Positions 22,260 through 43,343 of a DNA stretch of 64,000 nucleotides are shown one piece after another. Each line of letters opens with the position of its first letter. Position 1 is the first letter of the stretch. The position numbers and the translations under genes were made by a program. This stretch comes from Undibacterium sp. Jales W-56 (GTDB lineage Bacteria; Pseudomonadota; Gammaproteobacteria; Burkholderiales; Burkholderiaceae_D), in the NCBI RefSeq assembly GCF_025548535.1, contig NZ_JAJLQW010000006.1, forward strand, positions 124,001-188,000. Direction: 5' to 3'. The notes beneath the pieces were generated by a model that saw nothing but the letters and a program-made list of their open reading frames with translations, did no database searches and was not told the origin of the DNA.

Positions 22260-22309
22260 CGTTCCAAATTATACATAAGTATTTCTAAGGTTGGGGCATG
22301 AAACCGGCA

Positions 22310-22335
22310 TATAATGAGAATTATTCGCATTCTCA
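22310..22335 (+). promoter_or_regulatory. Fur-box-like operator overlapping a TATAAT -10 box
   Basis: A perfect inverted repeat, TGAGAAT (22315-22321), 7-base spacer, ATTCTCA (22329-22335), has the same hexamer-7-hexamer plan as the classical Fur box GATAAT-N7-ATTATC. A TATAAT hexamer (22310-22315) abuts it, although no strong -35 was found. It lies 28 bases before the ATG at 22364, so iron-dependent repression of the FTR1-type gene is likely. It also argues against the upstream ATG at 22298. Confidence 0.7.
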
Positions 22336-22363
22336 CTCAGCACTCCCCTTTTCGCGAGATTCT

Positions 22364-24286
22364 ATGTTACCGCTCCGCACTATCCTGATTGCATTGCTGT
22401 GCTTTGCTTCTGCTTCGCTTCCAGCCCGCGCCAATGACCTGCCCACCCAAACCAAGACGAAGCAGATCTGGCAAATGCTGGACTACCTGGCTGTCGACTA
22501 TGGCCGGTCAGTGAAAGACGGAGCCGTGCGCAACCAGAGCGAATACGCGGAGATGGAGGAGTTCGCTCGTACTGCGGAACGCCAATTGGCAGAATTGCCA
22601 GACAGTCCTGCGATGCCAGAGCTCAAATCAGAAGCTGCGAAGCTGCGCACGTCTATCGGGAACAAGTCCTCGCCACAAGAAGTTGCCGATCAGGCTCATG
22701 CATTGGCAGGCCATCTACTTGCCACGTATCCAATTCCCATGGCGCCGGTCAAGCTACCCGAACTCCAACTCGGCGCAAAGCTGTACCAGAGCCAATGCGC
22801 CTCCTGCCATGGCGTGTCCGGCCACGCCGATGGCCCGCTTTCTGCAACGCTAAATCCACCTCCGATCGCTTTGGCCGATCACGGCCGCGCGCAGGAGCGC
22901 AGCGTGTTCTCCCTGCAGCAAATTATCACACAGGGTGTGGCCGGTACTTCTATGCGCGGTTTTACTGAACTGACTGACGAAGAGCGTTGGGCAATCGCAT
23001 ATTTTGCTTCAACAATGTCCTATAGCGATGCGGACCGCCAGACGGGCGCTAAAATATGGGCCACCCGCCCGAATATACAGGCGGCCGTTCCGACGCTGGC
23101 TGCATTGACTCAGACATCCGAGGCGACCCTTGCCAAAAACATTGGTCCAGAGGTGGCGCGACCATTGATTGCTTACCTGCGTAGCACGCCTGCCGTACTG
23201 GCGGCATCCGGCGCCGACAGCGTCTTGATAGCCAAATCCAAGTTGAAGGATAGCGTTGCAGCCCTCGAAGCCGGCGACACGTCGCAGGCTTCCCGTTTGG
23301 CCCTGTCGGCCTATCTCGATGGATTCGAACCTGTGGAGCCTGCACTGGCCGCGAAAAACAAGGGTTTGTTTGAAGACATTGAAAAAACGATGGGCATGTA
23401 TCGCAATGCTGTCAGCCAGAACAATATCGGGCAGGCACAGGCGATCGAGCAGCGTTTGCAAAAATTGCTCGCGGAAGCAAGTGCGGCCCTCGATACATCC
23501 AACGATCCGTTATCTACCTTCCTTGGGGCACTGACCATCCTTTTGCGTGAGGGTCTGGAGGCGCTGCTGATCGTAGTTGCGATGATCGCCTTCCTTCGCA
23601 AGGCCGAACGTACCGATGTGCTCAAATATGTGCACGGCGGCTGGATCGCGGCGCTGGGGAGCGGCGGCCTCACTTGGGTGGTTGCTACTTACCTGGTCAA
23701 TGTTAGTGGAGCAAGCCGTGAGATGACAGAGGGTTTTTCGGCCATTTTTGCTGCTGTCGTCCTTCTTGCCGTCGGTATCTGGATGCACCAAAAAAGCTTG
23801 GCCGGTCGATGGCAAGCGTACGTCAAGCAAAAACTGTCGGCCGCTCTCAGCAAAAAATCGGCGATGATGCTGTTCTTGCTGTCGTTCGTTACTGTGTATC
23901 GCGAGGTGTTTGAAACTGTCCTGTTTTATGCCGCGCTGTGGACGCCGAACAATGGCATATATTTGATCTCCGGCTTAGCCTTGGGAATAATCCTTCTCGC
24001 GGCGATCGGCTTTCTCTTGCTGCGCTCTTCGGCCCGCCTGCCGATCAGTAAATTCTTCGCGTGGAGCTCCGCGCTGGTTGCGGTGCTGGCCGTCGTACTC
24101 ATGGGCAAAGGTGTCGCGGCGCTGCAAAAGGTTGGCTACCTGGGACTTACACCGATCTCGATGCCGCGCATCGATGTACTCGGCCTATATCCGTCCGTGC
24201 AGACTGTGCTTGCGCAGGTAGTGATCCTATTGATAATTGTGGCAAGCATTGCTTTCAATATCAAATCGCAGAAAAAATTAGCTTAG
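22364..24286 (+). CDS. Cytochrome c / FTR1-family iron (or lead) permease fusion
   Basis: A 640-residue protein. It has a signal peptide (cleavage near PARAND), then a helical domain with a cytochrome c haem site C-A-S-C-H at about residue 145, a second helical domain, and a C-terminal seven-helix FTR1 permease. The permease carries the two iron-binding motifs REGLE (about 395) and REVFE (about 513). The C. metallidurans lead uptake protein PbrT is an FTR1 relative, so uptake of Fe or Pb is possible. The start at 22364 is chosen because the upstream ATG (22298) would place the Fur-like operator inside the coding region. It is transcribed away from czcI2. Confidence 0.88.
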   Translation: MLPLRTILIALLCFASASLPARANDLPTQTKTKQIWQMLDYLAVDYGRSVKDGAVRNQSEYAEMEEFARTAERQLAELPDSPAMPELKSEAAKLRTSIGNKSSPQEVADQAHALAGHLLATYPIPMAPVKLPELQLGAKLYQSQCASCHGVSGHADGPLSATLNPPPIALADHGRAQERSVFSLQQIITQGVAGTSMRGFTELTDEERWAIAYFASTMSYSDADRQTGAKIWATRPNIQAAVPTLAALTQTSEATLAKNIGPEVARPLIAYLRSTPAVLAASGADSVLIAKSKLKDSVAALEAGDTSQASRLALSAYLDGFEPVEPALAAKNKGLFEDIEKTMGMYRNAVSQNNIGQAQAIEQRLQKLLAEASAALDTSNDPLSTFLGALTILLREGLEALLIVVAMIAFLRKAERTDVLKYVHGGWIAALGSGGLTWVVATYLVNVSGASREMTEGFSAIFAAVVLLAVGIWMHQKSLAGRWQAYVKQKLSAALSKKSAMMLFLLSFVTVYREVFETVLFYAALWTPNNGIYLISGLALGIILLAAIGFLLLRSSARLPISKFFAWSSALVAVLAVVLMGKGVAALQKVGYLGLTPISMPRIDVLGLYPSVQTVLAQVVILLIIVASIAFNIKSQKKLA

Positions 24287-25313: not shown

Positions 25314-25433
25314 AGCGCGGTTAGCAAACATTTTGGGCGAGTTCTTTCATTCATATTTCGACATTGTGATAATACGCCGTTGTGTGTGTTTGCGTGGGTC
25401 GCTCGCACTGCCTTGGTCTCGGCTATGTAACAA

Positions 25434-25487
25434 GCGGCCGCGCTTCACGTTTATGCAAAGCTTCACATAAACGCGAATCCCGGCCGC
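25434..25487. repeat. Nested inverted repeat, recombination-site-like
   Basis: The layout is symmetric: GCGGCCG (25434-25440), 7 bases, CGTTTATG (25448-25455), 10 bases, CATAAACG (25466-25473), 7 bases, CGGCCGC (25481-25487). Both arm pairs are perfect. GCTTCAC also recurs directly at 25442 and 25460. No T-run follows, so it is not an ordinary terminator. The spacing of two short arms around a core resembles tyrosine-recombinase or Tn3-family resolution sites. It lies 19 bases before the start of a broken FTR1 gene. Confidence 0.6.
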
Positions 25488-25505
25488 CCCTCAACGCGCG
25501 GGGTA

Positions 25506-25854
25506 GTTGTGCCGCGCTGTGGACGCCCGACAATGGCATGTATCTACTTGCTGGCCTTGGGGCTGGGCGCGGCAATCCTCGGCGCAATCGGCTTCATGTT
25601 GTTGCGCTCCTCTGCGCGCCTGCCGATTGGCCAGTTCGTTGCGTTCAGCTCCGCGCTGGTTGGCGTGCTGGCCGTCGTGCTTATGGGCAAAGGCGTCGCA
25701 GCGCACCAAAAGGTGGGCTATTTGAAGATGACGCCGATTTCGATACCACCCATCGAATGTGCTCGGCCTTTACCCGTCCATGCAAACTGTCTTGGCGCAG
25801 GCCCTCATTCTCACGATCATTGTCGCGAGCATTGCATATAATATTGAGTCGCAA
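25506..25854 (+). pseudogene. C-terminal fragment of a second FTR1-family permease
   Basis: Plus-strand fragment beginning at the equivalent of ALWTPNNGIYL in the complete protein and running through FMLLRSSARLPIGQF and VVLMGKGVAAHQKVGYLKMTPIS. It then shifts frame at about 25755 and continues LGLYPSMQTVLAQALILTIIVASIAYNIESQQ. It is similar to, but clearly diverged from, the end of 22364-24286, so it is a relic of another permease gene rather than a fresh duplication. The haem and REGLE parts are absent. Confidence 0.85.
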
Positions 25855-26047
25855 CAAAAATCAAGCGTGGCGCTGGAACGGCGCCAATCCGATCAATATC
25901 GGCATACCTACTCAGCGTTCCCGCCGGCCTACTTGCAAGCTATGCCGGGGGCTAGTCCGTTGATTCGTTTGTTGTCACCAATCACATGTGCGGAACATTT
26001 GGCAAATTTGGGCATGGTCGGATTCAAATGCCGATCGCGCCGCGGCG
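25855..26047. other. Non-coding junction between cargo and backbone
   Basis: No convincing gene. The stretch separates the broken FTR1 fragment from the DUF1173 gene, where base composition by eye rises in GC and gene content changes from metal resistance to element backbone. I found no clear terminal repeat or target duplication. Confidence 0.4.
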
Positions 26048-27277
26048 TTATTGCCCCGTAGCTGCTCTTTTCCTAATCACAACGGGCAATGCCGGCATCG
26101 GCATGTCGGTGATCCAGACCCATTCCTCGGCACCTCTCACCTTGAGCGTTTTCTCCTTCAGCCCGCGTTCCTTGGGTTCCATGAAGGCACTCACTACATG
26201 CAAGGCCAACGGCGTGTCACCGGCGTCCAGCAATAACGCGTTCGGAAACGGCGCCGCGCTGTTGGCGTCGTAGCGCAGCGGCTTGATGAAGCGGCGCTGC
26301 TGTGCCACCAGTGCATCGATCAAGCCGATTTCATGGATGCCATCGACAGGAACCCATTGATCCGTGGTGAGCATGAAGCTGGCCTTGTCAATCTGGTAGA
26401 TATGCTCCCGTTTCGCGTAGATCAGGGCGCACATGACGACGCGGGGCTTGCGCGGCGTGTCCGCATCGCGCGCCTCGAACAGACTGCCGTAGACCCGCTC
26501 AATGCGCTCCCAAGCCTTGGTGTTGATGAACAACGGTGCATCGGGCATGTGCTTGACCCAGACTTTGCGCCCGAGTGGCGTCGCTTCGCTGCATTTGAAC
26601 TCGCCCAATACCAGCGCCATCCGAAATTGCGACTCGCCGTCCGGCGCCTGGAGCAGCGCGAGCTTGCTGCGTCTGCGCTCCGCAGCCCGCGACTTCGTCG
26701 CTTCGCTGAACGGTTCTGGCACATAGAGACGCTCCGACAGGCGCACGCCTTTTGTCGTCACATCCTCGGCCGCTTCCATCAGGTACCTGTGCAGCACTCC
26801 CTGATTGCGCTTGCCCTCCATCTTTGGCGTCCAGCGGTTCATTCCGGCGCGTTCGAACAGGAAGTGCATGACGGCGCGCAGGCTCATCCTGCGCCTGGGA
26901 ACACTGACCTCGGAAGGCTCCGACGGTTCGCCCCGCGGAACGGTCCGGCCGGGCATGCGGACCAAGGGAAAATCGACGCGCAACTCCACGGATTCCGCAG
27001 AGTGCTCGATGATCGACTCACCCATCAGTTCACCCAGTCCCGACTGGTGCAACTCCGACTCGTACGACGGACAGGACGCATGGTGCCTTGTGCCCGTCTC
27101 GGGCATGCGCTTGACCACGTACAGCCGGTGCCTAGCGACGTACATTTCGATACCACCCGGCACGCACATGCAGCGCGGACGCTCGGGTGTGTCGTAGACG
27201 CGCGCGAGCGCATCCTGCAAACGCTCGTCGTCCGCCGCGAAGGTAACTCCCTTGATGAAGAAGCGCTGCTCTTCCAT
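26048..27277 (-). CDS. DUF1173 family protein
   Basis: A 409-residue protein starting MEEQRFFIKGVTFAADDERLQ. Features include a possible zinc-binding CMCVPGG and CPSYESE region in the first 90 residues, ERAGMNRWTPKM, and a central VLGEFKC. The set is typical of DUF1173 proteins, carried by ICEs and plasmids and without known function. The start at 27277 is 9 bases after the integrase-like gene, so the two are co-transcribed; the long upstream frame to 27511 overlaps that gene and is not credible. Confidence 0.75.
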   Translation of the reverse strand: MEEQRFFIKGVTFAADDERLQDALARVYDTPERPRCMCVPGGIEMYVARHRLYVVKRMPETGTRHHASCPSYESELHQSGLGELMGESIIEHSAESVELRVDFPLVRMPGRTVPRGEPSEPSEVSVPRRRMSLRAVMHFLFERAGMNRWTPKMEGKRNQGVLHRYLMEAAEDVTTKGVRLSERLYVPEPFSEATKSRAAERRRSKLALLQAPDGESQFRMALVLGEFKCSEATPLGRKVWVKHMPDAPLFINTKAWERIERVYGSLFEARDADTPRKPRVVMCALIYAKREHIYQIDKASFMLTTDQWVPVDGIHEIGLIDALVAQQRRFIKPLRYDANSAAPFPNALLLDAGDTPLALHVVSAFMEPKERGLKEKTLKVRGAEEWVWITDMPMPALPVVIRKRAATGQ

Positions 27278-27285
27278 GGACGCGC

Positions 27286-28221
27286 TCACACCAGTTCGCG
27301 CACGACCATGTGCAAGGGTTGGCGCGTGTGCGGCAGGAGCTCCCTCACCGACTTCAGTTCGCTGATCCCCAGCACTACGCCAATCTGGTCCTCGGCGGCG
27401 CCCCGTTCGAGCAGACGGGCTGCGACCGTGCGACGCGCGTTCAGCGCCGACATGCCCTCGAGGCCGATGCGGCGGAATATCTTGCGATAGGTTTCGAGGA
27501 TGCCCCGACAAAGGAACCGGGTTTGCCCCACCTCGCCATAGCTCACGATTTCGAAGGGCGCGCCTGCCTCCGTCAGAAACAGCCGGCTGTGGGGATCAAG
27601 GCCACGATAGCTGGCAGGCGCTGGCCCCGTCCCTGCGGCGGTAGTGCCAAGGCCGTGGCGCAGTCTTTCCGCCAGGTAGTCGTCGATCGCGGCATTGGCG
27701 CGCTGGCTGGCAAAAAAGAGCGGTCTGGCACTACGGTTGATCGCAACGTCCGCACGCAACACCGACTCTTCCCTGACGCTGCCGTCAATGCACAGGTAGT
27801 CGCGCACTTCCACTCGCGCGATTTCGAGCGGCCGCGCGCCGGTCGACAACAGCATGTAGAACAGTGCCGTATCCCTGCGCGGACAGGCGCTGCGCGAGCG
27901 CGTCCTGCGAACCGCCATGTCGATCTCCTGATCGGTAAGTATCCGCCCGGGAGGGGCATCTTGCGACGCGGCCGGCGTGTATCGCTCCAGGGCGGACAGG
28001 ACCGATGCGCTGCATGTGCGCAGTCGCTGCACGAATGCCAGGCCATCCTGATTGAGCCCGTCGATGCCGACCTCCCGGCTCAACTTCAACGCCAAGCCCT
28101 TGATCCGCCGCTCGACCGCAGTGCGGGTAACGCCGTGTTCCGCGGCGACGGCATCGTAAGTCTTTCCGGCGACGACATCCTTGAGCATCGCAATCGATTT
28201 AAGTGCTGAGTCGGATTCCAT
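27286..28221 (-). CDS. HTH plus tyrosine-recombinase-fold protein, copy 1 (active site degenerate)
   Basis: A 311-residue protein. Residues 15-45 (GKTYDAVAAEHGVTRTAVERRIKG) look like a helix-turn-helix. From about residue 95 an integrase catalytic fold begins, with the first Arg in STGARPLEIARVEVRDY. At the usual HxxRH motif it reads LNARRT, so the second Arg stays but both His are lost. The last 40 residues contain no Tyr, so the nucleophile is missing. It is paralogous to 29076-29999. It may be a DNA-binding regulator derived from an integrase. It lies upstream of the DUF1173 gene. Confidence 0.8.
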   Translation of the reverse strand: MESDSALKSIAMLKDVVAGKTYDAVAAEHGVTRTAVERRIKGLALKLSREVGIDGLNQDGLAFVQRLRTCSASVLSALERYTPAASQDAPPGRILTDQEIDMAVRRTRSRSACPRRDTALFYMLLSTGARPLEIARVEVRDYLCIDGSVREESVLRADVAINRSARPLFFASQRANAAIDDYLAERLRHGLGTTAAGTGPAPASYRGLDPHSRLFLTEAGAPFEIVSYGEVGQTRFLCRGILETYRKIFRRIGLEGMSALNARRTVAARLLERGAAEDQIGVVLGISELKSVRELLPHTRQPLHMVVRELV

Positions 28222-28330
28222 GGTGGCGGTGTCACCTGTAGTCGAGGTAGTTCATGGTGATCCGGCAGCCACTGGCCGGCGAGCCAAAATCACGCTGGAA
28301 AGCCGGGGCTTTCGGCATTAGTGATACCGT

Positions 28331-28579
28331 TCACGGACCTTCCGCGTCCGGGCGTTTGGTGCCGGCGCCCGAATCACCTGTTTCGACGATCCAGCTACGA
28401 ATGTCTTCGGCCCGCCAGGCGGTCACTCGCGCGGACAGTTTGACGGGAGCCGGAAACGTTCCGGCAAGCACCCGGCGCCAGAGTGTCGATTTGGAGATCG
28501 GGACGAAATTCAATACCTGCGCTTGCCGCAGAAAACCAGTTTCAGGAAAGATTGGATGAATCGGATTGCTTGTTGACAT
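28331..28579 (-). CDS. AlpA-family helix-turn-helix regulator
   Basis: An 82-residue protein: FLRQAQVLNFVPISKSTLWRRVLAGTFPAPVKLSARVTAWRAEDIRSWI. This is the winged HTH of AlpA/excisionase-like proteins, including the Trp-rich WRAEDIRSWI end. Members activate integrase genes or bend att DNA. The start at 28579 is favoured by length. It lies between the two integrase-like genes on the same strand. Confidence 0.85.
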   Translation of the reverse strand: MSTSNPIHPIFPETGFLRQAQVLNFVPISKSTLWRRVLAGTFPAPVKLSARVTAWRAEDIRSWIVETGDSGAGTKRPDAEGP

Positions 28580-28594
28580 GATCGGCCCTAACAC

Positions 28595-29075
28595 CGGCGG
28601 CGCGCGCCGGACAGAAGTAGCTGACCTGCTCTGTCGCGATCATGCGAGGCCAGAAATGCATAATCGTTAGGGAATCGATACTTACGATATACCGGGGACT
28701 CCCGACCGGACGGTATGGATCAATAAGTGCATATTGACTGAATGCGCAGGACTACTGCGCAAACGAAATGGACAACTTGTGGGCATCGGCGAGAGCCGGC
28801 GGGTAGTGGGGCAGGTATCGACTGCGACGCCGCCAGCGCTGACATGACGGATTGGGTGAGTTGGGCGCAACGTCTTTTTATCGGGATGTCGTGCGACCTG
28901 GTGAAAGCGTAAGGCAGAGGGGAACCATTTTCAAGCCCGGCTTGCGCTTCGCCACGGCGAATACCGAAAGCCATTCGCCCACTGGGACGCTTCGGTTGGC
29001 GTCCGGTTTCCATGAACGGCTTCGGCAACTCGAATTGCCATGCCGACGGGTGTTATAACGCTTGCGGCGCTCTGC
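28595..29075. other. Long intergenic region between alpA-like and integrase-like genes
   Basis: About 480 bases without a convincing gene. A 102-codon minus-strand frame (28720-29028) exists, but its sequence is low-complexity, Arg/Ser/Pro-rich and without a ribosome site. The AT-richer part at about 28655-28740 may hold the promoter of the alpA-like gene. I see no clear repeat or terminator. Confidence 0.4.
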
Positions 29076-29999
29076 TCACATCCGGCTGACAACGCTCCAA
29101 AGCGATTGGCGATGTTGGGATAGCAGTTCGCGCACGGACTTTTTCTCGCTGATCCCCAGGATCTCGCCGATCTGCTCCTCCGTGGCACCGCGCTCGCTCA
29201 TTCTGACGGCGACCAGTCGCCGCACGCTGATTGGCGACACGCCCGGCAACCCGATGCGCTGGAACATTTTTTGATACACGTCCAGGATCCCACGGCACAG
29301 GAAGCGCGTCTGCCCGCGCTGGCCATAGCTGACGATGTCGAACGGTGCGCCCTGCTCCGTCAAGAACAGCCGGCTGTGGGGATCGAGGCCGCGAAAGGTC
29401 GCTGCCTCTTGGGTGCCGAAACCCCGCAGCAATCGATCGGCCAGGTAACTGTCGATCGATTGCTGCGACTTCGGACTGGCGAAGCATAGCGTCCTGGCCT
29501 TTCTATTGACCGCCACCTCGCTGCGCATGACCGACGCAATGCGTACGCTGCCGTCAGCGTTCAAATAGTCGCGCACTTCGAGCCGCGCGACCTCCAGCGG
29601 ACGGGCTCCGGTCGTCAGCAACATGATGAGCAGGGCGACGTCGCGATCCGGGCAGGCGCTGCGCATTCGCGTTTTCTGTAGCGCCAACGCGATGTCCTCA
29701 TCGGTGAGCCGTCGCCCGACAGGTTTCTCTTGTGGTGCCTGCGCTGTCCGCGGTTTGTACCGCCGGATCGCATCGGCAATTTCCAGTTTGCGCGCTCGAA
29801 GTCGCTGGACGAAGACGGGGCCGTCCTGATTGACGCCATCGATCCCGACCTCGCGTGAGAGCATGAGCACCGCCGCCTTGATGCGGCGCTCCACGACGGT
29901 ACGTGTTACGCCATATGCAAATGCCACGGCATGATAGGGTTTTCCGTCGATCACGTCCTGGAGCATTGCAATCGACTGCATGATTGAATCCGTTTCCAT
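29076..29999 (-). CDS. HTH plus tyrosine-recombinase-fold protein, copy 2 (active site degenerate)
   Basis: A 307-residue paralogue of 27286-28221. METDSIMQSIAMLQDVIDGK aligns with the start of copy 1. It has the HTH AFAYGVTRTVVERRIK, the first Arg in TTGARPLEVARLEVRDY, and ISVRRLVAVRMSERGA in place of the HxxRH box. No Tyr occurs in the last 40 residues (ISEKKSVRELLSQHRQSLWSVV). The same residues are lost in both copies, which argues for selection for a non-catalytic job rather than decay. The start at 29999 matches copy 1. Confidence 0.78.
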   Translation of the reverse strand: METDSIMQSIAMLQDVIDGKPYHAVAFAYGVTRTVVERRIKAAVLMLSREVGIDGVNQDGPVFVQRLRARKLEIADAIRRYKPRTAQAPQEKPVGRRLTDEDIALALQKTRMRSACPDRDVALLIMLLTTGARPLEVARLEVRDYLNADGSVRIASVMRSEVAVNRKARTLCFASPKSQQSIDSYLADRLLRGFGTQEAATFRGLDPHSRLFLTEQGAPFDIVSYGQRGQTRFLCRGILDVYQKMFQRIGLPGVSPISVRRLVAVRMSERGATEEQIGEILGISEKKSVRELLSQHRQSLWSVVSRM

Positions 30000-30284
30000 T
30001 TCGAAAGCACGCTTTGCTAATGTTGCACCCGAAGTTCCCATCTATGAATGCGATAAGCCGAACAAGATGCCATGCGTCAACCTGCTTTCGAAGACGACTG
30101 GACTCGGATTGGTTTTCTTGGCGCGGCAACGCCACGCGATGTCGCTCGCACAACTGCATCAAAAAATTTTTCGATTTCCCTCGTGTCCCCCCTCAAGCCG
30201 TCGATTGCATTTTCTATTGCCAGCAGTCTTCGCGGTTGCCTATATTTGGCAGAAAATCCGTACCAAATAGACATCATTGCTTAA

Positions 30285-30558: not shown

Positions 30559-30804
30559 ATGCCCAGGCTCTCTTCCAAACTCGACAGCGATAAAAAATTA
30601 GTGCGGCTAGGCGCCGCGATTCGCGCGCGACGGAAAGAGTTGGGCGTCTCGCAGGAAGAGTTAGCGATCGACTGTGGCGTCGAGCGCAGCAATATGGGGA
30701 AGATCGAACGCGGCGAAAATAATCTCTCGATTTTGAATCTCGTACGCATTGCGGAAGCGCTCAACGCGAATGCCGCAGACATCTTGGCGGATGCGAGTCT
30801 TTGA
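30559..30804 (+). CDS. Xre-family helix-turn-helix regulator
   Basis: An 81-residue single-domain Cro/CI-type protein: LGAAIRARRKELGVSQEELAIDCGVERSNMGKIERGENNLSILNLVRIAEALNANAADIL. It has the HTH plus its five-helix frame and nothing else. No strong ribosome site is visible, and an ATG 8 bases upstream is out of frame. It probably represses its own promoter in the AT-rich gap upstream. Confidence 0.85.
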   Translation: MPRLSSKLDSDKKLVRLGAAIRARRKELGVSQEELAIDCGVERSNMGKIERGENNLSILNLVRIAEALNANAADILADASL

Positions 30805-31296: not shown

Positions 31297-31965
31297 TTAG
31301 TCCAACGCGTTATCCTGACGCGCAGGACCTTTCGCCGGGTTTTCCGATCGATGCTCTGGTGCCGGATCCTGCGTTCCCATCGCGTTCATGCGACGGCGCA
31401 GTCCCGTTGCCAGATTGCGGGCGGCAACCGCCACGCCACGGATCGCACGTTTGAAGCCGGCACGCTGAATATCGGCCTCGCGCGCCGTGATCACTTCATG
31501 GATCTCCAAGGTCTGCAGCAAGGGCATCACCTGATCGAACTTGTTCAACAATTCCAGGTAACGCCGGCCGGTCGAAGAAATGACGCCGACCTCGATCTCC
31601 AGGGCTTTCGTGTCGTAGGTGGCAAGGCTTGTAATTCCGTTGACCTTGAACAGGGCTTCCGCGCCGTCGATCGCCTTGTTCAATTCCTCGGTGGCGGTGC
31701 CAAGCTTGCCCCGCAAGAGCGCTTCGACGCGCTCGACATCCTCATGCTTTAGCTTGGTGCGTGCGATGACCGACACGAAATGGCTATTGAGCTGCAAGGT
31801 ACTGAAGAAGCGTACGAACAAGCGCTTGGCCTCGGCGCTCGTGAAATGGGTCATCAGTTTCACGCTGGCCTGCTCGACGCGGCGAAAATCCGCCTTCACC
31901 TCTTTCGCCAATATGCGTGCGTTCGCCTCGCCCAGGTCCGTCACCACCATTTTCGTGTCTGTCAT
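31297..31965 (-). CDS. DUF1845 / AcaB-like ICE protein
   Basis: A 222-residue, mainly helical protein: MTDTKMVVTDLGEANARILAKEVKADFRR, then LTSAEAKRLFVRFFSTLQLNSHF-type helices and HEVITAREADIQRAGFKRAIRG. It resembles the DUF1845 (PFL_4669/AcaB-like) family found in conjugative elements. AcaB of IncC plasmids activates the FlhDC-like master regulators, and this element carries such a pair at 40437-41399. GAGGAG precedes the ATG at 31965. The family call is from memory of motifs and needs a profile search. Confidence 0.6.
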   Translation of the reverse strand: MTDTKMVVTDLGEANARILAKEVKADFRRVEQASVKLMTHFTSAEAKRLFVRFFSTLQLNSHFVSVIARTKLKHEDVERVEALLRGKLGTATEELNKAIDGAEALFKVNGITSLATYDTKALEIEVGVISSTGRRYLELLNKFDQVMPLLQTLEIHEVITAREADIQRAGFKRAIRGVAVAARNLATGLRRRMNAMGTQDPAPEHRSENPAKGPARQDNALD

Positions 31966-32104
31966 GTCGCGCTCCTCGTGTGCTTCCACCGCCCCCATGG
32001 TCGCGGCTCGCGTCGATACCCGCCACCAAAAATGGCGAACGGACGTTGGGGATTTCGGCACCAGCCTCGGCTCTGAATCGAAACCATATTGACATCGGCG
32101 CACC

Positions 32105-37543: not shown

Positions 37544-38815
37544 TTACGCTTGAATCACCGCCTCCATGCGTTGTATCTCGAGACGTGACAGTCCTTGACG
37601 TTGAGCCTCGTCGCGCCAGCCGGCAAGTGCGCCACGCACCTCGTCCACGAGGACGTTGGCGCGCGCCGCGCTCAATCGGTACATGTCGGCACAGCTGACA
37701 GCCGCCGGCAAGCTTGGCTGCGCATTGTGTCCATCCAGGGTCAAGGCGTGGCTCGCCTTGTCCGGACTGGGGTTCATGTCGTAGGCGGGAGAGAGGCGCC
37801 AGCCGGTGGCTTCCCGGATAAACCCGTGGTTGCGCATGTGATCGTCCCGGTTGCCGATCAGCACGTTAAACACCACGCGCCGGAACAACTGCTCCAGATC
37901 CGCAGCGATATGGTTCCGTGCCCCTTGATCCTCGATGAACTCGACAAGGTCTAGATAGCTGCCGCCTGGCTGGCCATCCCTTCGTTCGAGCAGCGTCATC
38001 GCGGAAGCGAACATTCTGCGGCTGTCGCCGCTGCGGTCGAAACGCTGGATGCAAAACGTGCGGTAGCGCTCGTTCAATAGTTCGATGCGCGCTTCTGGCA
38101 CGACAATGCCTGCCCTGGCAGCGAGTGAATGGGCCACGAACTCCCATGCCCCGACGTCATAGCGATCGTCGCTGGCCGGAAATTTCGCGAACCACAGCAG
38201 ACCATCGCCATCGGTGAAGTTCGCCTTCGGCCGCGCGCCGCCCAAGGAACTGCCGGGCGTGATCAGCATGGCCAACCATTTTTCGTACTCCGGCAATTTC
38301 TCGACGCCAGGCTCCTCGATACGGCGGCTGATGTGGGCCAGTTCGCCAAGACTGGTGACCGGAGGCGCCGCATGCGGATGGTCGTCCAGAAACGGGCCGT
38401 CGGCGCCTTTCCGGAAGCGCAGCGCCCCCATACGGGTCAAGTCATGCACGCCCAACAGGAAGTCCACTTCGTGGAGCTGACGCATCTTGCGCCCTTCCCG
38501 CTCAGCCATTGCGGCTTCGCGCCGCTCAAGCAAGACCCGACCCCAGCGATCCGGGGCGGAATCCATGAACACACCGAAGGCCGGCATGTCGACCTCGGGG
38601 TGCTGCTCGCCCGCCCACAGCTCCAGGCGCGGATCGAGCATGAAACTATTTCCGCTCTTGATCCAGTCGCTGTCGTAGGCAAAGCTGGCAGGCAACTCCA
38701 AACGCAAGGTGTCGCGGTACATGGTGCCGACGCGAGCCTCCACCCCCAGGTCGGCTGCCCAGAGATAGACGTCGTACGCGTCGCGCGTACCGTTATTCGG
38801 CTTCTTGGTGACCAT
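37544..38815 (-). CDS. hipA: HipA-like serine/threonine kinase toxin
   Basis: A 423-residue protein (ATG 38815; another start lies at 38836). The HipA couple domain (GVFMDSAPDRWGRVLLERRE) is followed by the kinase core: P-loop GSSLGGARPKANF, catalytic NRDDHMRNHGF and metal-binding SPAYDMNP. The kinase motifs look intact. HipA in E. coli phosphorylates glutamyl-tRNA synthetase and halts translation. The gene overlaps the 3' end of the HipB-like gene, the normal antitoxin-toxin order, and would stabilise the element. Confidence 0.9.
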   Translation of the reverse strand: MVTKKPNNGTRDAYDVYLWAADLGVEARVGTMYRDTLRLELPASFAYDSDWIKSGNSFMLDPRLELWAGEQHPEVDMPAFGVFMDSAPDRWGRVLLERREAAMAEREGRKMRQLHEVDFLLGVHDLTRMGALRFRKGADGPFLDDHPHAAPPVTSLGELAHISRRIEEPGVEKLPEYEKWLAMLITPGSSLGGARPKANFTDGDGLLWFAKFPASDDRYDVGAWEFVAHSLAARAGIVVPEARIELLNERYRTFCIQRFDRSGDSRRMFASAMTLLERRDGQPGGSYLDLVEFIEDQGARNHIAADLEQLFRRVVFNVLIGNRDDHMRNHGFIREATGWRLSPAYDMNPSPDKASHALTLDGHNAQPSLPAAVSCADMYRLSAARANVLVDEVRGALAGWRDEAQRQGLSRLEIQRMEAVIQA

Positions 38816-39170
38816 TGTCTTCTGTACCGTTTTCACTGCCCGCTGGTTTGGACGGCGCCAGGCGTCCTCTCGGCTTTCTCGCGACCGGCATCTTCAGGTC
38901 CTGCAATTTGCGGCCGAGCTCGTCATCCTTCGCCACTTTGTCGATATCCTTTTCGACACCGAGGACACGCAGGGCCCGGACATAGGTGCCCATGGCGATA
39001 CTGGGATCGCCTTTCTCGAGGCGATTGAGCGTATCGCGTGATACGTTCATCCGTTCAGCGAACAGGAGCGTGCTAATGCCGCGGCGCAGACGGGCTTCCC
39101 GCAGCCGCTGGCCGAGCGCGGCCATCTGCTTTTCGATTGCCGGGAAGGGGCGGGATGGCGATGTCTTCAT
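38793..39170 (-). CDS. hipB: HipB-like antitoxin and autorepressor
   Basis: A 125-residue protein with an Xre HTH (LGQRLREARLRRGISTLLFAERMNVSRDTLNRLEKGDPSIAMGTYVRALRVLG) and a Lys/Pro-rich tail, longer than E. coli HipB. The start is the ATG at 39170. Two matching operator copies lie upstream. The stop falls 22 bases inside the HipA frame. Confidence 0.85.
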   Translation of the reverse strand: MKTSPSRPFPAIEKQMAALGQRLREARLRRGISTLLFAERMNVSRDTLNRLEKGDPSIAMGTYVRALRVLGVEKDIDKVAKDDELGRKLQDLKMPVARKPRGRLAPSKPAGSENGTEDNGHQEAE

Positions 39171-40436: not shown

Positions 40437-40769
40437 ATGGGTGATGTGCAATTTTCCGATGTGCAACTTCTGAATTTGTCCATGCTGATCACGATGAGGG
40501 ACAGTATCAAGCAAGACCTGGTTTCCGGATGCTGCAAGTTCGGCTTGCATGTCGACCAGGCGCGCTTCCTGGGCGACCTCACGTTCGATCAGATCCTGGT
40601 CATGGTGGCCAATATCGGACACGAGTGCCTGTTCCCGCCGCGCCAGGATCTCGTCTCGCTATTGAAACTGCCCGTCCCTCTCGCCGGGCCGATCACGTCG
40701 GTCCATCCTCCTTACCAGACCCCGCCGATGCCGGGCACACTATTTCCCCGATGCTGCCGCGCCTCGTGA
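40437..40769 (+). CDS. FlhD-like transcription activator subunit (SetD/AcaD type)
   Basis: A 110-residue protein with AAAGGA before the ATG. DVQLLNLSMLITMRDSIKQD, then CCKFGLHVDQARFLGDLTFDQILVMVANIG, is the FlhD helical fold. It is followed 12 bases later by an FlhC-like gene with a GTG start. In SXT and IncC elements SetCD or AcaCD switch on all transfer operons. I infer the same here from the pair, the divergent repressor and the downstream tra genes. Confidence 0.75.
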   Translation: MGDVQFSDVQLLNLSMLITMRDSIKQDLVSGCCKFGLHVDQARFLGDLTFDQILVMVANIGHECLFPPRQDLVSLLKLPVPLAGPITSVHPPYQTPPMPGTLFPRCCRAS

Positions 40770-40781
40770 GCGGAGGCCATC

Positions 40782-41399
40782 GTGACGAAAAATACGACTT
40801 GCGCCGAGCGCCATATTCGCGCGCTCGGCTTGGCGAAGGACTGCGCCGCGCTCGGTGCGCGCATCCGCACCATCGGCTATGTGACCGGCATGCCACACGG
40901 GCAGTTGGGCGATCTGTTTTTTCCCGACCGCCAGTTGGCGCCCCGAGGACGCCCGCCCGATTCCCCCGACTGGTATCACAACGCAAATTTGCTCAATCGG
41001 GCCGAAGCGTCGATCCTCGTTTCGGTTTATCGACGCGTTCGGGACCTTGGCTTCGGCCCGGCCGAGGCGCTTGTGGCGGCGTACAAACACTATCTCGCCG
41101 CTTGCCACATGGCTCCGCGTATTCATTTCGACCGCGCCTTCGACCTGGCCTCCCATATGGACGGCATTTGGCTCGTCAGGGCAGCGAGCTTCTCGCTAGT
41201 GACCTGTCCGGCCTGCACCAGCCAATATGTCACCTCGATCGGTGCCCATCCTATCGGCAATCACTTGTGCCCGTTTTGCAAACTGGTCAAGCGTTACGCA
41301 AGCGATCCGCGCATCCAATCGTCGTTTCCGGTCAACGCGCTTCCTGACCTGAAGGCGCTTCAATTCAGCGTGCTCGCCCTGCCGAGACAGCGAAGGTAG
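40782..41399 (+). CDS. FlhC-like transcription activator subunit (SetC/AcaC type)
   Basis: A 205-residue protein with a GTG start behind GGAGG. The N-terminal helical part contains ALGARIRTIGYVTGMPHGQLGDLFF, and the zinc site is CPACTSQY plus CPFCKL at about 145 and 165, as in FlhC. With the FlhD-like partner it would form the master activator of transfer. The tra genes begin 100 bases downstream. I found no clear copy of the SetCD/AcaCD target box upstream of them by eye. Confidence 0.82.
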   Translation: MTKNTTCAERHIRALGLAKDCAALGARIRTIGYVTGMPHGQLGDLFFPDRQLAPRGRPPDSPDWYHNANLLNRAEASILVSVYRRVRDLGFGPAEALVAAYKHYLAACHMAPRIHFDRAFDLASHMDGIWLVRAASFSLVTCPACTSQYVTSIGAHPIGNHLCPFCKLVKRYASDPRIQSSFPVNALPDLKALQFSVLALPRQRR

Positions 41400-41498
41400 A
41401 CCCTGATGTCAAAACCCCCATCGTAAGTCGGCCATTTCGATTGGTGGCGGACAGCGACCTGCGCGAACATCAATCGTCCATCATCTTCCAGACCAAGC

Positions 41499-43343
41499 AT
41501 GCGCACCGTAGATCGTCTTCTGGGTAGTTTCGGTCTGCGGCGTGCAAACATATCCGCCCCCGAAAACATCGCCCCGCCAGCATCGGCGACCAGCGGCGCG
41601 CAAGCGGCGCCCTATCCGCCGGTCGACCCGGGCATTCCGGCCCTGTCCATCGACGAGATACTGGCCCCACACTCGGACCTGATCGAGCGTATCAAGGTCT
41701 GCTACGGCATGGACCGCCCTACCTTCGAACAGGAGTTGCTGTCGCTGATACGCCGCTACGCCGAATTCGTACATCTGCTGCCTGCGACACCGGACAATTA
41801 TTTCAACGCACCGGGCGGGCTTCTGCGCATGGGGCTGGAAACCGCCTTCTTCAGCCTGCAGGGAACGGACGGCCACATCTTTTCGGGACGCGCGACGATC
41901 ACGACACGTCGTCATCTGGAACCGAGGTGGCGGCACGCGACCTTCATCGCGGGCCTGTGCAGCGAGATCCATCGCACCCTGTGCCATGTCATTGTCACCA
42001 ACGAACATGGCGACGAGTGGCAGCCATACCTGTCGCCGCTGGCAAGCTGGCTGTCCGCCCACAGCGTGACGCGTTTCTATTTGAAATGGCTCCCCAACGT
42101 GCACGAGAGCCGCACGCTGGGCGTATTCGCATTGCCCCATGTCGTGTCGGGGGAGATGCTGCAGCACCTCGCCACCGGCAATACGGTCATCGTGCCGCAT
42201 ATGATGGCGAGCATCTCAGGCATGCCGATCTACCGTGACCGCAATATTCTGGACGACCTGGTACGTCGTTCGGTCGCGCTCGTCGTCGACCGGTATCTGC
42301 AGGCGAGCGCAGATCGCTACGGGCAGCCGCAACTTGGATCACACCTGGAGCGCTATCTGGTTGACGCATTGCGCCGGATTGTCAGTTCCAATTCGGCCTG
42401 GACCCCAAATGGCGAGAAATCGCGCGTCTGGTACGGCAGCGATGGCCTGTTCATCGTCTGGCCGAACGCGGCGACGGAAATGCGCGTCCTGCTCGAATCC
42501 GATCAATTGCCCGGGATACCCAAGGCGCCGGAAACGATGCTCGAGATTCTGATAGCGGCCGGCGTCTTCGAGCCACAGCATTCCGGCCAGGCCACATGGC
42601 ATATTGCTCCACCCGATCTCAAGACCGTGATCGAAGCTGTCAGGTTGTCGTCCCCGGCGATTCTATTCGCCGGCCTCGACCCCGAGCCCAAGCCGCTTGC
42701 TGTTCCACTGATTCACTCTGCCGCAAGCGCCAACGCCGGCGCCAGCGCCGCACCGAATTCTGCGGCGCATGGTGGCCCCACGCTGGTCAATACAGCTCAT
42801 AAACCTTCACCGGCCCGCCAACTCCCGCTGCCAATCGAGACGGAGCCAGCCCCGCATGACCGATCCCGCGCCACGGCAACGGTAGGCATCATCGGCGACA
42901 TCGCAGCGTCAGCAAATCCGGCCCACGCGGGACAAGCGCGGTCAAAGCACGCTGAATCGACCGTAAGCAAACACGCGTCAGTTCTGCCGACATTCAAGCT
43001 CGAAGCGCCGATGCGCTTGAATCCCGCTGTACGCGACGCGCTAGCACAAATCGTCGACACCTTGAATCGTGACGGTGCCGTGGCGGCCGCTCGAACCGTC
43101 TCGGCGGGCCTCTTCATTCCGCTTGCAGAATTCGAAGGCCGCAGGATCGAGCCATCGTTGGCATTGCGCGCGTTGGCCGATGTAGGAATGCTCGTGCATA
43201 GCCACGGGACCAATGGTTCATCATCACAGACCGATGTTCTCGACTTCGGTGACGATAAGAAGTTGGGCCTGGTCCTCCACCCTCGTTTCATAGCCGGACT
43301 TGACCCTGCCGATTTCGACGCTGGAAATGCCGGGGAAGGCTAA
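41499..43343 (+). CDS. traI: TraI-like protein of the MOBH relaxase family
   Basis: A 614-residue protein. Residues 80-190 match the TraI_2 domain of MOBH relaxases: FVHLLPATPDNYF, APGGLLRMGLETAFF, EPRWRHATFIAGLCSEIHR. The canonical HHH, GGLxxHSLE and LHD residues are replaced by NYF, M and SE, so the HD-type metal site appears lost. The C-terminal third (430-500) is Ala/Pro-rich, ending in a winged-helix-like domain seen in TraI proteins. No clear ribosome site. It precedes traD by 1 base, the SXT order. Confidence 0.75.
   Translation: MRTVDRLLGSFGLRRANISAPENIAPPASATSGAQAAPYPPVDPGIPALSIDEILAPHSDLIERIKVCYGMDRPTFEQELLSLIRRYAEFVHLLPATPDNYFNAPGGLLRMGLETAFFSLQGTDGHIFSGRATITTRRHLEPRWRHATFIAGLCSEIHRTLCHVIVTNEHGDEWQPYLSPLASWLSAHSVTRFYLKWLPNVHESRTLGVFALPHVVSGEMLQHLATGNTVIVPHMMASISGMPIYRDRNILDDLVRRSVALVVDRYLQASADRYGQPQLGSHLERYLVDALRRIVSSNSAWTPNGEKSRVWYGSDGLFIVWPNAATEMRVLLESDQLPGIPKAPETMLEILIAAGVFEPQHSGQATWHIAPPDLKTVIEAVRLSSPAILFAGLDPEPKPLAVPLIHSAASANAGASAAPNSAAHGGPTLVNTAHKPSPARQLPLPIETEPAPHDRSRATATVGIIGDIAASANPAHAGQARSKHAESTVSKHASVLPTFKLEAPMRLNPAVRDALAQIVDTLNRDGAVAAARTVSAGLFIPLAEFEGRRIEPSLALRALADVGMLVHSHGTNGSSSQTDVLDFGDDKKLGLVLHPRFIAGLDPADFDAGNAGEG

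Follow-up and report, generated by a model that had tools for sequence, protein, structure and literature searches.

The master repressor of phage SPbeta, MrpR (YopR; PDB 8A0A, 8BJ6), has the recombinase fold and binds DNA without recombination activity, and its authors consider that conversion of recombinases to regulators is probably more widespread (PMC10516654). For SroF of phage phi3T (PDB 9RGL, 9RD5), the title of the 9RGL entry refers to a repressor and antirepressor. In animals, domesticated Crypton recombinases (DUF3504) that have lost the nucleophile form part of transcription regulators carrying additional DNA-binding domains (PMC3212892), and inactive integrase-fold regulators as such are, with MrpR and these proteins, already known. 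The other systems relevant here are the transfer activators of conjugative elements. SetCD (SXT/R391) and AcaCD (IncA/C) are class II activators acting from sites at -35 (PMC4344509, PMC4207636); the essential part of the AcaCD site is CCSAAAWW (PMC8409611).

Here we describe two genes in a 64-kb stretch of Undibacterium sp. Jales W-56 DNA (the window, Table 1), whose products have the integrase fold and an incomplete active site; together with their relatives we call them dead integrases. The window lies within an ICE-like element that encodes a MOBH relaxase, TraD, F-type secretion genes and, as judged from ORF translations, metal-resistance cargo. As in MrpR, the two proteins combine the tyrosine-recombinase catalytic fold with loss of recombinase residues and are encoded by a mobile element. 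MrpR, however, has an N-terminal core-binding domain and the Tyr and Lys but is without the first Arg and the His, whereas the proteins described here have, by sequence, an HTH in the N-terminal half, keep the Arg and have lost Tyr, Lys and His. Because the two patterns of residue loss are nearly opposite, the function of MrpR may not carry over. The habitat also differs, being conjugative elements of Pseudomonadota here and phages in the case of MrpR and SroF. The Crypton proteins are eukaryotic and of independent origin, and they lack the second Arg, a residue present in every one of 49 HTH-type relatives of the two proteins.

Table 1. Features of the window discussed in the text
Feature	Position	Strand	Remarks
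DUF1173 protein	26048-27277	minus	PF06666 E 4.1e-98, 329 bits against a cut-off of 25, nearly full length
Integrase-fold protein 1 (copy 1), inactive	27286-28221	minus	311 aa; N-terminal HTH and tyrosine-recombinase catalytic-domain fold
39-bp conserved box (ATGCCGAAA...TTTTGGCTCG)	28280-28318	minus	58 bp upstream of the start of protein 1
AlpA-like small HTH protein	28331-28594	minus	PF05930 E 6.6e-10, 39.2 bits against a cut-off of 21; between the copies
Integrase-fold protein 2 (copy 2, solo), inactive	29076-29999	minus	307 aa from ATG 29999; no box upstream
AcaB-like regulator	31297-31965	minus	PF08900 E 0.0045, weak, below cut-off; conserved in 32 loci
Same 39-bp box before AcaB-like gene	32023-32061	minus	Site outside the motif-building set
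Small conserved gene, placed like SetD/AcaD	40437-40769	plus	18 loci; no Pfam match; identity inferred from position
SetC/AcaC-like activator of the FlhC type; may read the box	40782-41399	plus	PF05280 E 1.1e-8, above cut-off
Same 39-bp box before traI	41406-41444	plus	Site outside the motif-building set
TraI-type (MOBH) relaxase, first gene of the transfer operon	41499-43343	plus	PF07514 E 1.6e-64

Fold, active site and ancestry of the two proteins

The two copies are 63% identical. The reading frame of copy 2 is open from 30041 (29076-30041, 321 aa), and the ATG at 29999 is the start that aligns with relatives. Both copies score under the cut-off of the Pfam integrase model (E 0.0018 and 0.0006), which makes them borderline integrases on sequence alone. 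An AlphaFold model built with 46 window and locus sequences (pLDDT 91.7) bears out the recombinase catalytic fold that the first-pass annotation had assigned. Residues 88-311 match recombinase catalytic domains, best exemplified by XerA (Z 18.9, rmsd 2.9, 178 residues), followed by Cre, XerH and the Tn1549 integrase (Z 15-16) and lambda Int (Z 13.6); the same list holds the integrase-fold phage regulators SroF (phi3T, Z 13.2) and YopR/MrpR (SPbeta, Z 11.7-12.1). These structural matches are confined to residues 88-311; the N-terminus matches HTH families by sequence. Residues 1-50 are helical and contain an HTH in sequence (26 of 46 relatives match HTH_23 and 17 match HTH_28), and this domain appears to take the place of the usual N-terminal half, i.e. 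of a core-binding domain. Proteins of the family are basic, with a median pI of 9.8.

To map the active site, relatives were aligned with the genome's own two XerC/XerD-type recombinases, in which the seven positions are R, E, K, H, R, H and Y. In this alignment the column of the nucleophile Tyr is occupied by Leu295 in both copies, that of the strand Lys by Ile or Val161, that of the HxxR His by Leu or Ile260 and that of the third-box His by Ile286, while Arg130, Glu133 and Arg263 are retained in both. Four of the seven residues, the nucleophile included, are lost, and both phosphate-contacting Arg positions remain. At the HxxRH box the two copies have LNARRT and ISVRRL, with the box-II Arg present and the His absent, and neither copy has a Tyr in its final 40 residues. 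The first-pass annotation had described an integrase-fold pair lacking the catalytic Tyr and His, and the residues agree with it. The same losses extend to the family: among 49 full-length HTH-type relatives, Tyr and the third-box His are absent from all and the HxxR His from 47. The box-II Arg is invariant in this set. The retention of the first Arg (within TGARPLE), also pointed out earlier, holds for both copies but not for the whole family, since Lys replaces it in 14 of the 49 and it is mostly lost in headless dead relatives. Taken at the level of sequence, the two proteins are probably non-catalytic and derived from a plasmid-borne tyrosine recombinase.

Scanning of GTDB genomes yielded 77 loci, mainly in Burkholderiales, and scanning of plasmids 205 matches, including shorter catalytic-domain-only forms. 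In a tree computed without the catalytic columns, the 56 inactive sequences of the sample all fall into a single clade (99/97), on a long branch apart from the active sequences and nested in a grade of short, catalytic-domain-only plasmid recombinases whose active site is complete and whose signature is SSHSGRR. These are the nearest active relatives in the tree (e.g. Acidovorax pACP4.3 CBP36_RS21165); they share the fold and the plasmid habitat but, unlike dead integrases, have all of R, K, H, R, H and Y in place and lack an HTH. HTH-bearing forms make up one inner branch (100/100). Since the dead sequences are one clade among active recombinases, the catalytic losses happened once and were inherited by both window copies. 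The likely order of events, as read from the tree, is a short active plasmid recombinase, a single loss of catalysis and then gain of the HTH. The two copies belong to one six-sequence group, in which copy 2 is closer to the protein of locus L018 (89/77) than to copy 1. It had been argued that the same losses in two diverged copies point to a non-catalytic use; that argument is weak because both copies inherited one ancestral loss, whereas the use itself is supported by the 56-sequence clade, the fold and selection. In 11 measurable pairs dN/dS is 0.05-0.23, i.e. synonymous change far exceeds non-synonymous change, and this purifying selection indicates that the genes are working genes.

A phage or viral origin was considered and rejected, as neither 50,697 phage records nor IMG/VR yielded a relative when searched by sequence patterns of these proteins. 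Two further observations concern the short forms. A subfamily of the short recombinases (L009, L012, L014, L098-L100, L103-L105) has HxxRR (SHSGRR) instead of HxxRH and retains K, H and Y. Genes for catalytic-domain-only recombinases also open long same-strand runs of tiny hypothetical ORFs (~50-150 aa) on plasmids; the recombinase at the head of the run is dead in L003, L004 and L005 and live in L098, L099 and L105, and some runs include ArdR.

A 39-bp box shared with transfer genes

A weight matrix for the 39-bp box, built solely on sites upstream of integrase-like genes, found three sites in the 64-kb window (the training site and those before the AcaB-like gene and traI) and none in shuffles. 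The three boxes lie 54-58 bp ahead of start codons when the AcaB-like gene is taken to start at ATG 31965, its likely start behind a GAGGAG Shine-Dalgarno sequence (the ORF is open from 32103). The box is also found upstream of AcaB-like genes in most relatives with a placeable start; before traI it was found in the window and in locus L017 but not in most other loci tested, among them the remaining FlhC-bearing ones. In all four elements with two copies (the window, L020, L022 and L033) the DUF1173-linked copy has the box and the solo copy does not.

The left half of the box, TGCCGAAA, agrees with TGCCSAAA of AcaCD sites, while its right half and its length differ from AcaCD and SetCD sites. 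The element resembles the SetCD and AcaCD systems in having a MOBH relaxase, an F-type secretion system, an FlhC-type activator, an AcaB-like gene and a box before the transfer operon (PMC4344509, PMC4207636). FlhC homologues are rare: they occur in 3 of 72,556 plasmids, which are three of the four plasmids bearing an HTH-type dead integrase and DUF1173, and an FlhC-type protein was found in 1 of 399 genomes of the order. Because the element encodes an FlhC-type activator, and because the box is common to the AcaB-like gene and the relaxase operon, the operon of copy 1 and DUF1173 probably belongs, by sequence comparison, to a SetCD/AcaCD-like transfer regulon. The accessible parts of the two reports name no dead integrase among the regulon genes (PMC4344509, PMC4207636). 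Alternatively, the box may be an operator of the dead integrase itself; however, 27 of 73 family upstream regions have neither the box nor AcaB or FlhC in view, and the resemblance of the left half to AcaCD sites also speaks against this.

Neighbouring genes and alternative roles

With belief and doubt about evenly balanced, we propose that dead integrases are non-catalytic DNA-binding regulators or organisers, produced when transfer is on. The main rival to regulation is suggested by DUF1173, which starts 8 bp past the stop codon of protein 1. It lies directly 3' of the integrase-like gene in 55 of 59 loci (the two genes often overlap by 4 bp), a figure conditional on the integrase, through which the loci were retrieved. 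DUF1173 is present on 3,383 plasmids, 2,528 of them conjugative, and on thousands without the integrase, so that its role in conjugative elements is wider; on a Xanthomonas plasmid it adjoins TraD and a MobF relaxase gene. The tightness of this operon, the plasmid distribution of DUF1173 and the box common to the copy 1 operon and traI would all suit a pair that processes or organises the DNA of the element in transfer (as an oriT or relaxosome accessory, or in protection or re-establishment of the incoming strand) rather than controlling transcription. We nevertheless regard this as rather unlikely, given that the predicted fold of DUF1173 matched OB-like folds weakly at best (Z no higher than 5.6) and that the solo copies are not paired with DUF1173. 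Close to the N-terminus of DUF1173 is a CxC...H...C set that is invariant or nearly so, and many members have a GEFK motif. PADLOC returned no defence-family match for either integrase-like protein or for DUF1173.

The first-pass annotation also noted that the copies flank an AlpA-like gene and precede a DUF1173 gene, identities that the PF05930 and PF06666 profiles confirm, and suggested that the group is one module. The conserved part of such a module is the dead integrase with DUF1173, whereas AlpA is optional: its gene, 110 bp upstream of protein 1 in the window, is found within 600 bp upstream in 24 of 96 family hits, and, being upstream of the 39-bp box, is probably a separate transcription unit. 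AlpA-type proteins are known as Xis/RDF proteins or integrase activators, and the element has a complete, active-looking Arm-DNA-bind-class integrase next to a tRNA-Ser gene. These two facts favour an architectural or directionality factor which, with AlpA and the active integrase, bends or occludes attL/attR, a form of the att-site role proposed earlier. Such a role is improbable, because the same gene pair sits on replicating plasmids, where AlpA is absent from the surrounding 16 kb; in addition, the integrase is ~54 kb from the two dead copies, and the 3' end of the tRNA has no second exact copy in 123 kb. Tyrosine recombinases work as tetramers, with only half of the protomers cutting at any one time, and a dead integrase could serve as the non-cutting member of a mixed synaptic complex that tunes recombination, either alongside an active recombinase or through pairing of copies 1 and 2. 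The recurrence of two-copy elements with the box only at the DUF1173-linked copy fits this idea. Its chances are nevertheless slim, considering the long branch between dead and active sequences, the HTH in the N-terminal half where a core-binding domain would be, and the absence of a conserved active partner gene adjoining the dead one. Finally, the active site still has its two Arg and its acidic residue, and Tyr142 and Tyr182 are conserved in the core, which would fit a recombinase using another nucleophile. But the nucleophile, the general-acid Lys and both His are lost in nearly all members, the C-terminal helices of the 49 full-length HTH-type relatives have no conserved Tyr, and we consider persisting catalysis highly improbable.

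The Arm-DNA-bind-class integrase, and not the two dead copies, is likely the enzyme for integration of the element. A second att copy was sought without success: no 14-base repeat of the tRNA-Ser 3' end turned up within 123 kb, and its sole other near-match in the genome is on another contig. The same element has several other features of note: an apparent type I restriction-modification locus (R, S, M) between the transfer genes and the integrase, just past the right end of the window (L093:3969-11040); genes for a HipB-like HTH protein and a HipA-like kinase (30559-30804 and 37544-38836), ~7 kb apart on opposite strands; and an apparent decayed partial copy (25400-25900) of the C-terminal part of an FTR1-like iron permease, downstream of the gene at 22298-24286.

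Proposed function and its implications

Regulation by non-catalytic DNA binding could work as follows. The FlhC-type activator would read the box and switch the copy 1 operon on together with transfer. The dead integrase would then clamp specific duplex DNA of the element through its Arg-lined core and the HTH, without cutting, and regulate promoters of the element, most likely by feedback repression or modulation in the manner of MrpR in SPbeta. The boxless solo copy would be under other control and may have a related, perhaps opposing or partner, role. A target site of the dead integrase itself was not found. An inverted repeat over the start codon, seen by eye in the solo copy and in L016 and L018, was tried as an autoregulatory site and rejected, since across 45 relatives it did not rise above shuffles. 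Of the two roles put forward by the first-pass annotation, that of DNA-binding regulators is plausible in the light of the MrpR and SroF precedents and of the promoter element shared with transfer genes, and that of att-site architects is not sustained. More tentatively, we envisage a single domestication of a recombinase in conjugative plasmids and ICEs that gave rise to a lasting family of HTH-headed DNA-binding factors, wired into an FlhC-type transfer switch and duplicated with divided control; such elements would thereby own a regulator made out of their integration machinery.

New features are the architecture of HTH plus core, an origin that took place once within conjugative elements, the pattern of kept Arg and lost Tyr, and the link to an FlhC-type transfer regulon. 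Our literature search, which left most subscription journals outside, found nothing on the dead-integrase family and a single paper that mentions DUF1173. In public annotation most proteins of the family are called 'site-specific integrase', a label that leads astray anyone looking for integrases or for the limits of mobile elements. Live and dead relatives, nested as they are in the tree, provide an ordered series on the change from enzyme to DNA-binding factor, and the box gives testable predictions on transfer control in a metal-resistance ICE. If dead integrases are regulators, the conversion of recombinases to regulators would not be confined to SPbeta-like phages but would be established in conjugative elements of Pseudomonadota.
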